Part shown: positions 41,437-48,650 of the stretch, one piece after another
Numbering within the stretch: position 1 is the stretch's first letter
Layout of the letters: each line of letters opens with the position of its first letter
Source of the DNA: Bacilli bacterium
GTDB lineage: Bacteria > Bacillota_I > Bacilli_A > RF39 > UBA660
Direction of reading: 5' to 3'
NCBI GenBank assembly: GCA_017432825.1
Contig: JAFRIJ010000004.1
Span: 1 to 64,000, forward strand
DNA: 64,000 nucleotides
Notes under the pieces: generated by a model
Databases searched by the model: none
Seen by the model: the letters and a program-made list of their open reading frames with translations, nothing else
What the model was told of the DNA's origin: nothing
Translations under genes and position numbers: made by a program

Positions 41437-43827
41437 ATGGACATAAGAATTATATACATTGTATTAGGAGCAATTTTTTTAATTAGTATTTTACTATATT
41501 TTACTAATAAAAGCAAAAAACTAAGATTAGTAACAAGTATTATTACAATATTGTGTATTACCACAGCGTGTTTATTTTCATATAAACCATTATTTGATAA
41601 TATTAATTACGGATTAGACTTACAAGGTGGATTTGAAGTATTATATGAAATATCACCAATTAATAAGGAAGAGAAATTAACAAATGAAATGTTAAAAAAT
41701 ACTTATAAATCACTAACCAAAAGAATAGATATATTAGGAGTAAGTGAACCTGAAATTACAATTGAAGGAGATAATCACATAAGAGTAAAATTAGCGGGTG
41801 TTACCAATAAAGAACAAGCTAGAGATATTTTATCTTCTACAGCATCTTTAACATTTAGAGATACTACTGATCATTTACTTATGACAAGTGATGTATTAGG
41901 TGGGAAAGCAAAAGTAACAACAGATCAATATGGAAGACCTGCTGTAAGTTTATCTATAAAAAACAAAGATGAATTTTATGATGTAACAAGTGCTATATCT
42001 AAAAAAGATAATAATTTAATTGTTATCTGGTTAGATTATGATGAAGAAAACGATTCATACAACAAAGAACAAAACAGATGTGGATCATTAAGTAATTCAC
42101 ACTGTTTAAGTGCTGCATCAGTAAGTCAAGGCTTTTCAAGTGATGTAATAATATCTGGAAGTTTTACTTCAGATGAAGTAAAAAGTTTAGTAGATTTAAT
42201 AAATTCTGGAGCGCTACCTACAAAATTAGAAGAAATATCATCAAGAACAGTAGAAGCATCATTTGGTGCTAATAGCCTAGATAAAACTATATCTGCAGGA
42301 ATTATTGGTATTACACTAGTAATAATATTAATGACTATTGTATATAGATTTTCTGGATTTATAGCAAGTATTGGAGTATTATTATATACAACATTAACAT
42401 TCTTGATATTTTATTTAATAAATGGTGTACTAACACTACCTGGCATAGCAGCAATACTATTAGGTATAGGTATGGCTGTAGATGCCAATGTAATTTGTTT
42501 TGAAAGAATTAAAGAACAATTAAAAATAGGGAAAAAACTAGATGAAGCTTTTGAAATAGGTAATAAAAATTCATTAACAAGTATATTAGATGCTAATATT
42601 ACAACTATGATAGCAGCAGTAATAATATTTATTTTAGGAGAAAGTTCTGTAAAAGGATTTGCTACTATGTTAATAATAAGTATTGTTGTTACTATATTAG
42701 TAATGGTAGTATTAGTTAAATTTATTTTAAATATATTTGTTAAAACAAAATATTTTGATAATAAACCTAACTTATTTATTGGAGTAAATAAGAAGAAAAT
42801 AAAAGAAGCTGAAGAAATAGAAATTCCATTTAAAAAATTAGAATTTATTCATAATAAAAAGTATTTTTTAACAATTACTATAATTATAATAGTTATTGGA
42901 TCAATAATTTCATTTACTAAAGGTCTTAGTCTTGGAGTTGATTTTACTGGAGGAACTAGTATAACATTAAATACAAATGAAAAAGTAACACTAAAAGAAT
43001 TAGAAAATGATATAAAGGAATTAAAATATACTATTAAAAAAGAAGATAAATCAAAGAGTGATATTACAATAGTAATAAAAGAAGTATTAGATAAAGATAA
43101 TATAAAAGAATTATCAAATATATTAGAAGAAAAATACAATACAGATTCTAATATATATACAGTAAGTCAGGTAGTTAAACAAAGCCTAACTAAAAATGCA
43201 ATATATTCACTTATAATAGCATCTATTGGTATATTGATATATGTAAGCCTTAGATTTAAATTTAATTATGCCTTAGCAGCAATAGTTGCATTATGTCATG
43301 ATGCAATAATGGTTATTTTATTTTTCTCAATATTTAGATTAGAAATATCAAGTATCTTTATAGCAGCAATTCTAACAATTATTGGTTATTCAATTAACGA
43401 TACTATAGTTACATTTGATATGGTAAGAGAAAACTATAAAAAGTTAATTAATAGAAAAGCAAGACTTGTTTCTAAGAAAGAGAAGAAAAAAAATACAGAT
43501 AAAAATGAAAATGTAATGACTGTATTAACTAATGAAGATTTAACAGAATTAGTAAATAATAGTGTAAGAATTACTTTCTTTAGAAGTATTCTAACAACAA
43601 TTACAACTATAATACCTGTAATATGTTTAATGATATTAGGTGCAAGAGAAATTATTAATTTTAATATAGCACTTTTAGTAGGATTTATAGCAGGTGTTTA
43701 TTCTTCAATATTTATTTCTAACCCAATATGGGTATTACTAGAATCAAGAAGATTAAAAAAGCCACCAAAAGCAAAAAAAGAAGATGACGAAATAGAAGAA
43801 ATTAAAGTTAAGGGAGTTAACTGTTAA
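41437..43827 (+). CDS. secDF: Fused protein translocase subunit SecDF
   Basis: A 796-residue fusion of SecD and SecF, which uses the proton gradient to help pull proteins through SecYEG. The SecD half has NYGLDLQGGFEVLYE, a periplasmic-type P1 domain and GMAVDANVICFERIKEQL; the SecF half begins near LEFIHNKKYFL with GVDFTGGTSI and GYSINDTIVTFDMVREN. There are twelve membrane helices in total. A fused SecDF is usual in Bacilli. It lies between comN and relA, as in Bacillus apart from recJ and apt, which are missing here. Confidence 0.95.
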   Translation: MDIRIIYIVLGAIFLISILLYFTNKSKKLRLVTSIITILCITTACLFSYKPLFDNINYGLDLQGGFEVLYEISPINKEEKLTNEMLKNTYKSLTKRIDILGVSEPEITIEGDNHIRVKLAGVTNKEQARDILSSTASLTFRDTTDHLLMTSDVLGGKAKVTTDQYGRPAVSLSIKNKDEFYDVTSAISKKDNNLIVIWLDYDEENDSYNKEQNRCGSLSNSHCLSAASVSQGFSSDVIISGSFTSDEVKSLVDLINSGALPTKLEEISSRTVEASFGANSLDKTISAGIIGITLVIILMTIVYRFSGFIASIGVLLYTTLTFLIFYLINGVLTLPGIAAILLGIGMAVDANVICFERIKEQLKIGKKLDEAFEIGNKNSLTSILDANITTMIAAVIIFILGESSVKGFATMLIISIVVTILVMVVLVKFILNIFVKTKYFDNKPNLFIGVNKKKIKEAEEIEIPFKKLEFIHNKKYFLTITIIIIVIGSIISFTKGLSLGVDFTGGTSITLNTNEKVTLKELENDIKELKYTIKKEDKSKSDITIVIKEVLDKDNIKELSNILEEKYNTDSNIYTVSQVVKQSLTKNAIYSLIIASIGILIYVSLRFKFNYALAAIVALCHDAIMVILFFSIFRLEISSIFIAAILTIIGYSINDTIVTFDMVRENYKKLINRKARLVSKKEKKKNTDKNENVMTVLTNEDLTELVNNSVRITFFRSILTTITTIIPVICLMILGAREIINFNIALLVGFIAGVYSSIFISNPIWVLLESRRLKKPPKAKKEDDEIEEIKVKGVNC

Positions 43828-43845
43828 GCTAACCCTCTTTTTATA
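43810..43845 (+). terminator. Terminator of secDF
   Basis: AAGGGAGTTAAC/GCTAACCCTCTT stem with two mismatches and one wobble pair, followed by five T. Confidence 0.65.
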
Positions 43846-43853
43846 TTTTTTAC

Positions 43854-43880
43854 TTGACATATAAAAAAATAAAATATAAT
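43854..43880 (+). promoter_or_regulatory. Sigma-A promoter of relA
   Basis: TTGACA and TATAAT separated by 15 nt, slightly short of optimal. Confidence 0.6.
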
Positions 43881-43904
43881 ATTTAATTGAATGGATGTGG
43901 TAAG

Positions 43905-46064
43905 GTGAATGATACAGGAAGAGATATTACAATTAATGATGTAATATATGAATTTAAAAAATACAACCAAAATAAAGATGATATAGATTTAATAAATAAA
44001 GCATATGATTATGCATACAAAAAACATTTTGGAGTAAAAAGAATAAGTGGGGATGACTATATAATCCATCCATTAAATGTAGCAATGATATTAACAGATA
44101 TTAATGCAGATGCTGCATGTATGGCAGCAGCATTACTTCACGATACAATAGAAGATACAGATTCAACTAAAGAAGAAATAGAAGAATTATTTGGAAGTGA
44201 AGTAGCATTATTAGTTGATGGGGTTACCAAAATAAATAAGCTACATTTCTCCAATTCTGGAGAACAAATGGCTGCTAATCAAAGAAAAATATTAGTAGGA
44301 TTATCAGAAGATGTAAGAGTAATAATAATAAAATTAGCAGATAGACTTCATAATATGAGAACACTTTATGTAATGCCAGAAGAAAGACAAAAGAAGAAAG
44401 CAAGAGAAACATTAGAAATATTAACACCCGTAGCAGATAGATTAGGTATTAATAAAATTAAAAGCGAACTAGAAGATTTATCATTAAGATATTTAAAGCC
44501 AGATGCTTATTTTGATATATTAGAAAAATTAAATACTAAAAAAACAGAAATGGATGCATACGTAGGAAAAATGCTTACAGATGTATCAACCTTATTAATA
44601 GAACATAATATTAAACATGAAATATTTGGAAGAAGTAAAAGTGTATATAGTATTTATAAAAAAATGCAAAAAGGGAAAAAATTTAATGATATATATGATA
44701 TTCTAGCATTAAGAGTATTAGTTGATACAGAACAAGAATGTTATCTAGTATTAGGATTAATTCATTCCAAATATAAACCAGTCCCTAACAGATTTAAAGA
44801 TTATATAGCAATGCCAAAAACAAATTTATATCAATCATTACATACAACCATATTTGGAATAGAAGGAAAATTATTTGAAGTACAAATAAGAACATATGAA
44901 ATGCATAAAATAGCAGAATATGGTATAGCATCTCATTGGACATATAAAGCCAAAGGGGCTAGTGTTAAAACAGTAAAAGACTCCATGGAACAAAAATTAC
45001 AAATATTTAGAAGTATAATGGAATTAAATGAAGATACTAATAGTCCAGAAGAATTTATAAACAATATAAAACAAGACGTATTGACAACAGATGCAATATA
45101 CGTGTATACACCAAAAGGAGATGTTATAGAATTACCAGCAGAATCAACTCCAGTAGATTTTGCATATAAAGTGCATACAGAAGTAGGTAATTCAATAGTA
45201 GGAGCAATAGTAAATGATAATATTGTTCCACTAGATTATCATTTAAAAACTGGAGATATAATAAAAATTAATACAAGTAAGGCAAGCAAAGGACCAAATA
45301 AAGATTGGTTAAATTTTGTAGTAACAACACACGCTAAGAATAAAATAAAGTCATTCTATAGCAAGATAGAAAAAAATGATATAATTGACAAAGGACAAGA
45401 ATTATTAGAAAAAGAATTAAGAAAACAAGATTTACCAATAAATGAAACTCTAAATAATAAAAACTTAGAATTAATATTTAATGAATTTAAAATTAAAGAT
45501 ATAAATGATCTATATATGGATTTAGGCACTAATAAATATACACCTCAAGCAGTAATTAAAATAATAACTAAAACTAATGTTGAAGAAGATATAAAAAACA
45601 GAATAAATAATCCAACCCAATTTAAACAATTAGGAAAAAATGATATTTTAGTAGAAGGATTAGATGATGTAAAAGTAAATTTAAGTGGTTGCTGCAAACC
45701 AATTCCAGGAGATAATATAATAGGTTATATTACAAAAGGATCAGGAATATCAGTTCATAGAACAATATGTAGAAATATAATTGATATAGATGAAAGATTA
45801 ATAAATGTTAAATGGAATAATAATATTAATAAAAAGTATTTTACAGATATAATTATACATACAAGTACCGAAGATAATTTATTAGATATAATAACTAAAG
45901 CAAGCACAAATAATGTAATAATAGATAAAATAGAAACAATAAATAAAAGTGAATACAAAATATATAGTTTAACAATATTAATAGAGAATACAGAAAAATT
46001 ACAAAAATTTATCAATGACTTAGATAGTTTAGAATTTACTATTAAAGTAGAAAGAGTTAAATAG
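43905..46064 (+). CDS. relA: Bifunctional (p)ppGpp synthetase/hydrolase
   Basis: A 719-residue long RSH enzyme that makes and degrades the alarmone (p)ppGpp. The HD hydrolase is intact (YIIHPLNVAMIL, ALLHDTIEDTD, KLADRLHNMRTL). The synthetase has GRSKSVYSIYKKM, YDILALRVLV, YQSLHTTIFG and VQIRT. A TGS domain (VYTPKGDVIELPAESTPVDFAYKVH) and a C-terminal zinc-finger region (LSGCCKPIPGD, GSGISVHRTIC) and ACT domain follow. The GTG at 43905 is chosen because the TTG at 43887 lacks a ribosome site. Confidence 0.95.
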   Translation: MNDTGRDITINDVIYEFKKYNQNKDDIDLINKAYDYAYKKHFGVKRISGDDYIIHPLNVAMILTDINADAACMAAALLHDTIEDTDSTKEEIEELFGSEVALLVDGVTKINKLHFSNSGEQMAANQRKILVGLSEDVRVIIIKLADRLHNMRTLYVMPEERQKKKARETLEILTPVADRLGINKIKSELEDLSLRYLKPDAYFDILEKLNTKKTEMDAYVGKMLTDVSTLLIEHNIKHEIFGRSKSVYSIYKKMQKGKKFNDIYDILALRVLVDTEQECYLVLGLIHSKYKPVPNRFKDYIAMPKTNLYQSLHTTIFGIEGKLFEVQIRTYEMHKIAEYGIASHWTYKAKGASVKTVKDSMEQKLQIFRSIMELNEDTNSPEEFINNIKQDVLTTDAIYVYTPKGDVIELPAESTPVDFAYKVHTEVGNSIVGAIVNDNIVPLDYHLKTGDIIKINTSKASKGPNKDWLNFVVTTHAKNKIKSFYSKIEKNDIIDKGQELLEKELRKQDLPINETLNNKNLELIFNEFKIKDINDLYMDLGTNKYTPQAVIKIITKTNVEEDIKNRINNPTQFKQLGKNDILVEGLDDVKVNLSGCCKPIPGDNIIGYITKGSGISVHRTICRNIIDIDERLINVKWNNNINKKYFTDIIIHTSTEDNLLDIITKASTNNVIIDKIETINKSEYKIYSLTILIENTEKLQKFINDLDSLEFTIKVERVK

Positions 46065-46085
46065 AAGATTATTCTTCTATTTTTC
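46061..46085 (+). terminator. Rho-independent terminator
   Basis: ATAGAAGA/TCTTCTAT stem with a TTAT loop and a T-run after relA. Confidence 0.85.
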
Positions 46086-46091
46086 TTTAAC

Positions 46092-46120
46092 TAGACAAAT
46101 ATTACTAAAAGTAGTATAAT
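46092..46120 (+). promoter_or_regulatory. Sigma-A promoter of the tandem alarmone synthetase
   Basis: TAGACA, 17-nt gap, TATAAT. Confidence 0.65.
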
Positions 46121-46150
46121 ACAACCCATCTTATAGGAGTTGGTGCTTAC

Positions 46151-47434
46151 ATGTGTAATATTGACTTTAACGAAGTATATTTTAAATATGAAGCAGCTTT
46201 AAAGTTGCTTCAAACAAAGTTTGAAATAATATCCAATGAATTAAATAAAGGCAATGACTATAATTGCATAGAATATATAAAGTCTAGAATTAAAACAAAA
46301 GAAAGTATATGTAATAAATTAAAAAAACATAATTATGAACTTAATGATGAAAATATAAAAAACATTCATGATATAGCAGGTATAAGAATAATATGCTCTT
46401 TTCTAAATGATATAGATAAAATAGAACAACTTATTATAGAAGATGAAGATATAATTATAAAGAGAAGAAAAGACTACATATCAAATCCTAAAAAAAGCGG
46501 ATATTCATCATTACATTTAAATGTAGAAGTACCAGTTAAATTACTAGATAAAACAGAATACGTTGAAGTAGAAATACAAATAAGAACAATTGCTATGGAT
46601 ATGTGGGCTAGTTTAGAACATAAATTATTCTATAAAAATAATAGTATTATATCAGAATTAACTGAAGAATCAATTAAAAATTTCTCTATAATAATTAAAA
46701 AAATAGACATAATAATGAAAGATCAAATTACAGAAAGCAATAAATATAATATAGAAGAACAAAATGAATTAAAATATTTAAAAGAAACATCTGTAATTGA
46801 ACAAGTGCCAATGTTAAAATATGAATTAGCAAGAAAAATAATAAAAGAAAAAATAGAAAATATTAATTATGAATTATCAATAACTAATGGAATAAGCCCA
46901 ATTGAACATATAAAAACAAGAATTAAAGAACCAAATAATATAGTAAAAAAACTAAAAAAATTAAATTATGATATTACAATAGATAATATGAAAAACCATA
47001 TTCATGATTTAGTAGGAATAAGAATTGTATGTTCATTTCTAAGTGACTTAGAAGAAATAAAAAGCATTTTAGAAAAAGATGATACAATAGAAATAATAAA
47101 AAGAAAAAATTATATTGAAAATCCTAAAGAAAATGGGTATAGAAGTTATCATTTAAATGCTTTAGTACCTGTAAAAATGATAAATAGCGTAGAAAAGGTA
47201 GAAGTGGAAATACAAATAAGAACAATCGCTATGGATATGTGGGCAACTTTAGAACATAAAATCTGTTATAGAAGAGCTGGAAACATTCCAGAAAGTACGA
47301 AAAAAAGATTAAGACTAATATCTAATATAGTTAGTGAAATAGATAAAACCATAGATTCATCTATAAATGATAATAAGGAAATAGATAATAAAGTAGTTAA
47401 AAAATTAGAATTAATACCAAAAAAGAATATGTAA
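46151..47434 (+). CDS. Small alarmone synthetase with two tandem synthetase domains
   Basis: A 427-residue protein holding two complete RelQ/YjbM-type (p)ppGpp synthetase domains and no HD hydrolase, TGS or ACT domain. Copy 1 (about 12-190) has SRIKTKES, HDIAGIRI (Asp74), GYSSLH, VEVEIQIRT (Glu141) and EH 156-157. Copy 2 (about 222-405) has TRIKEPNN, HDLVGIRI (Asp286), GYRSYH, VEVEIQIRT (Glu353) and EH 368-369, offset by about 212 residues. Single-domain relatives are about 210 residues and form tetramers. Both copies keep the metal and GTP-binding residues, though copy 1 has Ser for Arg in the GYRSYH loop. Confidence 0.9.
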   Translation: MCNIDFNEVYFKYEAALKLLQTKFEIISNELNKGNDYNCIEYIKSRIKTKESICNKLKKHNYELNDENIKNIHDIAGIRIICSFLNDIDKIEQLIIEDEDIIIKRRKDYISNPKKSGYSSLHLNVEVPVKLLDKTEYVEVEIQIRTIAMDMWASLEHKLFYKNNSIISELTEESIKNFSIIIKKIDIIMKDQITESNKYNIEEQNELKYLKETSVIEQVPMLKYELARKIIKEKIENINYELSITNGISPIEHIKTRIKEPNNIVKKLKKLNYDITIDNMKNHIHDLVGIRIVCSFLSDLEEIKSILEKDDTIEIIKRKNYIENPKENGYRSYHLNALVPVKMINSVEKVEVEIQIRTIAMDMWATLEHKICYRRAGNIPESTKKRLRLISNIVSEIDKTIDSSINDNKEIDNKVVKKLELIPKKNM

Positions 47435-47450
47435 AAACATATTTTTTTTT
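47426..47450 (+). terminator. Rho-independent terminator
   Basis: AATATGT/ACATATT stem with an AAAA loop and a long T-run over the stop codon of the synthetase. Confidence 0.85.
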
Positions 47451-47495
47451 GTAATTTTCTTTCTTTTTCTACATATTTTTTAATAGGTGATTAAT

Positions 47496-48650
47496 ATGAA
47501 AAAAATAATTATAATACTATTATTATTAATACCAATTAATATATATGCAGAAGAAGAAATAAAACTAGGTGAAAATGCCAAAAGTGCTATATTAATAGAA
47601 TCTACTACTGGAAAAATAATATTTGAAAAAAATGCCCAAGAAGAACTACCAATGGCATCAATGACTAAAATGATGACTCTCCTATTAATAATGGAAAATA
47701 TAGATAATGGTAATTTAAAATGGGATGAAATAATAACAGCATCGGAACATGCAGCATCTATGGGAGGATCTCAAATATTTCTAGAACCCGGAGAAAAAAT
47801 GACAGTAGAAGACCTAGTAAAAGGAATATGTATAGGAAGTGGTAATGATGCATCTGTTGCTATGGCAGAAAGAATAGGGGGAACAGAAGAAAAGTTTGTT
47901 AGTATGATGAATAAAAAAGCGAAAGAATTAGGATTAAAAAATACCAATTTTGTAAATGCATGCGGATTAGATACAGATAATCATTACTCAAGCGCTTATG
48001 ATATGGCTATGATAGCAAAAGAATTAGTAAAGCATAAAAAAATACTAGAATTTACTGGAACCTATGAAGATTATTTAAGAAAAAATACACCTAATAGTTT
48101 TTGGCTTGTAAACACAAACAAGTTAGTAAGATATTATAGTGGAGTAGATGGACTTAAAACAGGATATACCAAAGAAGCGGGATATTGTATAACAACAACA
48201 GCACAAAAAGATAATATGAGATTAATATCAGTAGTAATGGGAGAACCATCATCAAAAATAAGAAATAGTGAGACAATATCAATGTTAGAATATGGGTTTA
48301 ATACATACGAAATGGATAAATTATTATCTAAAGATAAAGTAATAGCAAAAATAAAAATACCATTAGGAATCAAAAAGCAATCAGAAGTAATTTCAAAAGA
48401 AGATATAAATATTTTAAATACTAAAATAGGAACAAAAAGAAATGTAACATATAAAATAGAGTTAAATCAAGTAAAAGCACCAATAAAAAAAGGAGATATA
48501 GTAGGTAGCATTAATGTAATAGAAAATGATAACATAATAATGACAAGAGATGCAACAATAAAAGAAGATGTGAATAAAGCAAATATAATTACAGTATATT
48601 TAAGAAATATATTAGATATAATAAAAGGTAATATATCACTAAATATTTGA
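47496..48650 (+). CDS. D-alanyl-D-alanine carboxypeptidase (S11)
   Basis: A 384-residue DacA/DacF-type penicillin-binding protein that trims the terminal D-Ala from wall peptides. The signal peptide ends near NIYAEEE (residue 18). Catalytic motifs are SMTK (Ser55, Lys58), SGN in CIGSGNDAS, and KTG in GLKTGYTKEAG. A PBP5-type C-terminal beta domain and an amphipathic tail (YLRNILDIIKGNISLNI) for membrane attachment follow. The ATG at 47496 lies after ATAGGTGAT. Confidence 0.93.
   Translation: MKKIIIILLLLIPINIYAEEEIKLGENAKSAILIESTTGKIIFEKNAQEELPMASMTKMMTLLLIMENIDNGNLKWDEIITASEHAASMGGSQIFLEPGEKMTVEDLVKGICIGSGNDASVAMAERIGGTEEKFVSMMNKKAKELGLKNTNFVNACGLDTDNHYSSAYDMAMIAKELVKHKKILEFTGTYEDYLRKNTPNSFWLVNTNKLVRYYSGVDGLKTGYTKEAGYCITTTAQKDNMRLISVVMGEPSSKIRNSETISMLEYGFNTYEMDKLLSKDKVIAKIKIPLGIKKQSEVISKEDINILNTKIGTKRNVTYKIELNQVKAPIKKGDIVGSINVIENDNIIMTRDATIKEDVNKANIITVYLRNILDIIKGNISLNI

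Follow-up and report, generated by a model that had tools for sequence, protein, structure and literature searches.

The gene of interest, from a gut bacterium, is one open frame of 427 amino acids on the forward strand of the window, by which we mean the whole 64,000-nucleotide stretch of DNA that was analyzed. A Pfam search matched PF04607 (RelA_SpoT) to this protein twice (2.1e-58, 195.9 bits), and in the genome search each of the two stretches lies above the curated cut-off. No HD domain was found in the protein by the Pfam search; the synthetase domains are likewise without TGS or ACT, and nothing else rises over the Pfam cut-off. The two halves are 51% identical across 177 residues (E of 2e-57), and the invariant alignment columns D74/D286, G117/G329, and E141/E353 are all exactly 212 positions apart. 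The original prediction, of two complete synthetase domains offset by about 212 residues that both keep the Asp and Glu and have no hydrolase, is therefore borne out in each of its parts. At the DNA level the halves are 64% identical and the GC3 of the gene resembles that of its neighbors, which rules out a repeat made by the assembly and gives no obvious sign of recent import. The features of the locus are collected in the table.

Table. Features of the tandem synthetase locus (window coordinates; G002 to G005 are other genomes of the same genus)
Feature	Position	Strand	Basis or remark
Tandem small alarmone synthetase gene, 427 aa, two RelP-type SYNTH domains, no hydrolase	46151..47434	+	single ORF, two PF04607 stretches, double-domain orthologues in G002-G005
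N-terminal synthetase half, residues 1-198, PF04607 core 46283-46642	46151..46744	+	nearest solved structure Bacillus subtilis RelP/YwaC 6fgk; helix H169-198 closes fold in model
Linker, residues 199-221	46745..46813	+	predicted structure: low confidence 201-208, short helix 210-216
C-terminal synthetase half, residues 222-427, PF04607 core 46916-47278	46814..47431	+	nearest solved structure also RelP/YwaC 6fgk; model
D74, Mg-binding Asp of N half (SaRelP D107)	46370..46372	+	alignment
E141, Mg-binding Glu of N half (SaRelP E174)	46571..46573	+	alignment
D286, Mg-binding Asp of C half	47006..47008	+	alignment
E353, Mg-binding Glu of C half	47207..47209	+	alignment
Neighboring long RSH Rel (HD + SYNTH + TGS, ACT-like end)	43887..46064	+	catalytic motifs present by eye
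Neighboring D-Ala-D-Ala carboxypeptidase (DacA-like)	47487..48650	+	adjoins tandem gene in G002 and G004 too
Intrinsic-terminator-like hairpin after rel, then T-rich run	46058..46090	+	-9.7 kcal/mol, z -3.5
Promoter-like CTAGACA-N17-TATAAT	46091..46120	+	upstream of tandem gene in 5/5 genomes having the gene
Ribosome-binding-site-like AGGAG, 11 nt before ATG	46135..46139	+	sequence
Terminator-like hairpin with T-run at stop codon of tandem gene	47424..47452	+	-5.1 kcal/mol, z -2.7

The gene starts 86 nt after the end of rel, and this gap holds a promoter-like TAGACA-N17-TATAAT that agrees at 11 of 12 positions. The 30-base element has the same length in all five genomes and precedes the tandem gene in G004 as well, where a gene other than rel comes before. 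Its CTAGACA-N17-TATAAT form is the sole exact match in the assembly of the window genome, and the other four genomes contain 0 to 2 further matches each, while the generic TTGACA form is found at 26 sites in the window genome. Since a terminator-like hairpin and this conserved promoter-like site separate the two genes, the tandem gene is most likely transcribed as a unit of its own, and its place after rel is no evidence of an operon. The location directly downstream of relA that had been noted is thus correct as a position, but does not extend to cotranscription.

Two RelP-type domains in one chain

Although the two domains had been described as RelQ-like, both match RelP much better among solved structures. 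The N half matches RelP 6fgk at 2.1e-48 versus 6.4e-29 for RelQ 5f2v, and the C half gives 7.1e-45 versus 2.6e-33 for the same pair; the best solved relatives are 6fgk, 6ewz, and 6fgj, with RelP chains ranking first and each match spanning about one half. The residues that separate RelP from RelQ were described by Steinchen et al. 2018 (PMC5794853), where the flexible G-loop of RelQ is attributed to H111 and a proline in its place gives a rigid, pppGpp-insensitive G-loop, the same substitution made in RelQ abolishing the stimulation by pppGpp. Both halves carry the G-loop proline (SaRelP P146, absent from RelQ), within SNPKKSGYSS and ENPKENGYRS, respectively. At RelQ positions 42, 44, 148, and 111, the alignment places Y, K, D, and P in the N half and H, K, D, and P in the C half, so that F42, T44, and N148 of the RelQ pppGpp site are missing from both. 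Membership in RelQ (SAS1, YjbM), with which the halves share superfamily and synthetase fold, was rejected on these residues together with the best structure matches.

The residues corresponding to SaRelP R78, K80, K88, D107, R112, Y151, H155, E174, and H190 are intact in both halves. The residues expected of a RelP-type enzyme for binding ATP, Mg, and guanosine are therefore in place with two exceptions: R91 is Lys in both halves, as it is in 16 of the 33 single-domain relatives from the family, and S84, a Ser in the N half, is Asn in the C half, a residue also seen in 4 of 107 single-domain relatives. Each half thus resembles RelP (SAS2, YwaC) in its fold, in nearly all catalytic residues, in the G-loop proline, and in having no RelQ-type pppGpp site, and on these residues each has the look of a normal, working RelP enzyme. 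In the N half, a Ser stands in place of the Arg that RelP has in its G-loop (GYRS). RelP has one domain per chain and forms a homotetramer, whereas here two diverged domains share a chain. Because of these two domains we class the protein as a variant of RelP and not as an ordinary RelP; on its sequence it is an architectural variant of the RelP-type small alarmone synthetases with a narrow distribution, likely to function as a (p)ppGpp synthetase. The NCBIfam model GTPPhKinYjbM matches it below the cut-off (273.8 versus 320 bits).

A single-chain model of the window protein gave a mean pLDDT of 84.6 and a pTM of 0.82, and one of G182, a tandem from another lineage, gave 83.7 and 0.79; these pTM values come from six-sequence alignments, and because the G182 alignment also includes the window lineage, the second prediction is partly dependent on the first. 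The models suggest that the two domains are confidently placed relative to each other and form a compact two-domain unit, which makes the covalent dimer of the original prediction plausible. RelP and RelQ are homotetramers held together by helix alpha1 and the C-terminal helices (PMC5794853). For this reason, the simplest assembly would be an intramolecular dimer, two chains of which build a pseudo-tetramer.

Known multidomain synthetases differ from this arrangement. RelZ (MS_RHII-RSD) of Mycobacterium smegmatis is also a dual-domain small alarmone synthetase, but its second domain is an RNase HII and not a synthetase (PMC7591505). CapRel likewise places a synthetase-fold domain in a multidomain protein; unlike in the tandem, the second part of CapRel/toxSAS is an antitoxin-like regulatory domain, and the target is tRNA (PMC11782079). 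A search of the openly licensed literature turned up no protein with two small-alarmone-synthetase domains, which is not proof of absence. The tandem two-synthetase architecture is real, conserved, and apparently undescribed.

Distribution, origin, and divergence of the halves

The same double-domain open frame occurs in five of the seven genomes of the genus, namely, the window genome (G000) and G002 to G005. It follows rel in G002, G003, and G005, as in the window, and precedes dacA in G002 and G004. The gene was not found in G001, a genome that is 58% complete and where absence says little, or in G006 (92% complete), where an amidase-like gene and dacA come after rel. An artifact of sequencing or assembly that fused two adjacent genes, a concern raised with the original prediction, might be suspected given that the genome is a 17-contig draft assembly, probably metagenome derived. 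We consider the chance of this negligible: the frame recurs without internal stop in four other genomes of the genus, the halves are merely 64% identical in nucleotides, and both domains are in frame in ten tandem genes from three genera. Fusion by sequencing error was excluded on the first two of these points.

Between species of the genus, the tandem protein is 35 to 41% identical to that of the window, whereas Rel is 77 to 78% identical between the same species. Across window 41437-48650 and its counterparts in relatives, identity is about 67 to 78% for the adjacent Rel and SecDF, against the 35 to 41% of the tandem protein. By these comparisons the tandem protein diverges far faster than the neighboring Rel, which is compatible with relaxed or changing constraint.

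The domain search for tandem synthetase architectures proposed with the original prediction was extended to 193 genomes of the family and 385 of the order, two overlapping sets in which some candidates per genome were scored. Tandems were recovered in two more genera of the family, g44 (G182 and G288) and g39 (G177, G286, and G370), bringing the total to 10 genomes in three genera. No further tandem was found in a phylum-wide sample of 392 genomes, though the search could have passed over one that is more divergent. Among the matches listed in a class-level PF04607 survey, most were long Rel. The remaining small synthetases recovered from the family have one domain, including one each in g39 and g44, and none of the 28 single-domain loci read with their flanks has an adjoining rel gene. 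No single-domain form of the lineage of the window's tandem was found in the family surveys and trees.

Two further observations concern other RSH proteins. The window genome encodes a second, shorter RSH of 482 amino acids (L004:793-2241, on contig G000:C15), in which HD, SYNTH, and TGS were judged by eye and by alignment to Rel; it keeps the HDTVEDT motif and has KILIRT where Rel has EVQIRT. This protein is a probable hydrolase-only paralogue of Rel whose synthetase looks dead, and relatives of similar size, about 40 to 50% identical to Rel, are present in the other genomes of the genus. At L140:4996-6362 (G185), the gene for a single-domain RelP-type synthetase ends two bases before that of an HD-only protein, and the two are a putative synthetase-hydrolase pair.

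In the trees, which contain several long branches and whose deeper order is unsure, the tandem halves stand apart from the single-domain clade of the family. A tree with every N half in one clade is rejected (p-AU 0.0009), and with it a single duplication as the common origin of the tandems in all three genera. Within the genus, neither one N clade (p-AU 0.35) nor one C clade (p-AU 0.46) is rejected. The phylogeny of the two halves, also suggested at the outset, separates N and C lineages in most of the genus, but pairs the two halves of the window protein with each other with weak support (87/54); convergence of these two through gene conversion is a possible reading of the pairing.

The G-loops of the two halves, GYSSLH and GYRSYH, had been taken to suggest that one half could be catalytic and the other regulatory, or that the halves could prefer different nucleotides. 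For the window protein this is unsupported, since the loop varies freely among single-domain relatives and both halves keep nearly all catalytic residues; comparison with 107 such relatives led us to reject the catalytic/regulatory reading of the loop. The 33 from the family have GYSSYH (13), GYTSYH (9), GYISYH (4), GYMSYH (3), GYRSYH (2), GYYSYH (1), and GYKSYH (1), and the exact string GYSSLH is found in none of the 107.

Relatives of the window protein present another picture. In all three g39 C halves, Lys has replaced both R112 and the G-loop His, and H190 is lost as well in two of the three, while the N halves keep R112 and the G-loop His, with an H190W change in G177_N. We regard the C halves of these tandems (L126:7246-8637, L144:1405-2844, and L145:1354-2748) as candidate pseudo-synthetase domains. 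Both halves look intact in the g44 tandems, where R91 is variable, and in the sister species G002 the C half has H190 replaced by Glu and S84 by Arg. Given the losses in the g39 C halves and the departures in that of G002, asymmetry between halves, as read from aligned residues, exists in relatives although it is not visible in the window protein.

Weighing the explanations

The reading we favor, and consider probable, is that the gene encodes a RelP-type (p)ppGpp synthetase that was duplicated in tandem and in frame within the lineage, giving two competent-looking domains with some 20 residues of linker between them. After such a duplication the two halves would pack together as a covalent dimer, and two chains would together make a pseudo-tetramer with four sites, resembling the homotetramer of RelP. 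Each site would transfer pyrophosphate from ATP to GDP or GTP, activity would be set mainly by transcription from the gene's own promoter rather than by pppGpp, and turnover would be left to the hydrolase domain of the neighboring bifunctional Rel.

Whether such a fusion brings any new property is a separate matter. It is quite possible, if short of probable, that an in-frame duplication of a homo-oligomeric enzyme was neutral and that the product acts like two ordinary RelP subunits: both halves look ordinary, the rejection of an all-N clade (p-AU 0.0009) fits more than one origin within one family, as expected of an easily tolerated fusion, and the failure to find the gene in the 92% complete G006 makes it seem dispensable. 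Neutrality sits less well with an architecture that has persisted in five species while their sequences diverged by about 60%, and for whose lineage no single-domain form was found. An asymmetric, internally regulated synthetase, with one half catalytic and the other mainly regulatory or structural, is suggested by the residues missing from the g39 C halves and retained in their N halves, by the decayed G002 member of the C lineage in the window's own genus, and by the separation of N and C lineages in most of that genus. We find it unlikely for the window protein, in which both halves have the compared catalytic residues, the exceptions being a shared R91K and, in the C half, S84N, and whose G-loop differences lie inside the range seen among single-domain relatives.

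A toxic small alarmone synthetase or anti-phage effector, acting by tRNA pyrophosphorylation or (pp)pApp synthesis, was considered because the PADLOC model PDC-S33 matches both halves (1e-46) and fast divergence would fit conflict. PDC-S33 is, however, just a candidate model that probably matches through the generic synthetase domain, CapRel is weakly similar by sequence (E about 7e-4), and RelP-type residues are found throughout. Neither an antitoxin gene nor a fused antitoxin domain was recognized at the locus among ORFs, Pfam, and PADLOC matches, the neighbors being Rel, DacA, and a 126-amino-acid protein without a family. We therefore judge this explanation very improbable.

Returning to the in-frame RelP duplication, a broader proposal, which we put forward tentatively and think rather doubtful, is that tandem fusion is a recurrent route from a homotetrameric alarmone synthetase to an obligate hetero-assembly. 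The halves would then diverge, one tending to lose catalysis, as in g39 and partly in G002, to yield an internally regulated synthetase, and the window protein would represent an early stage, in which both sites are still catalytic but differ in function.

A putative covalent dimer that is kept across species and recurs in three genera, and of which one half has decayed in one lineage, would be a natural test of whether the four sites of the well-studied RelP and RelQ homotetramers act independently, and also of whether noncatalytic subunits can regulate a synthetase. It adds to the alarmone enzymes an architecture that single-domain annotation would overlook, the NCBIfam model for small alarmone synthetases scoring it below the cut-off.
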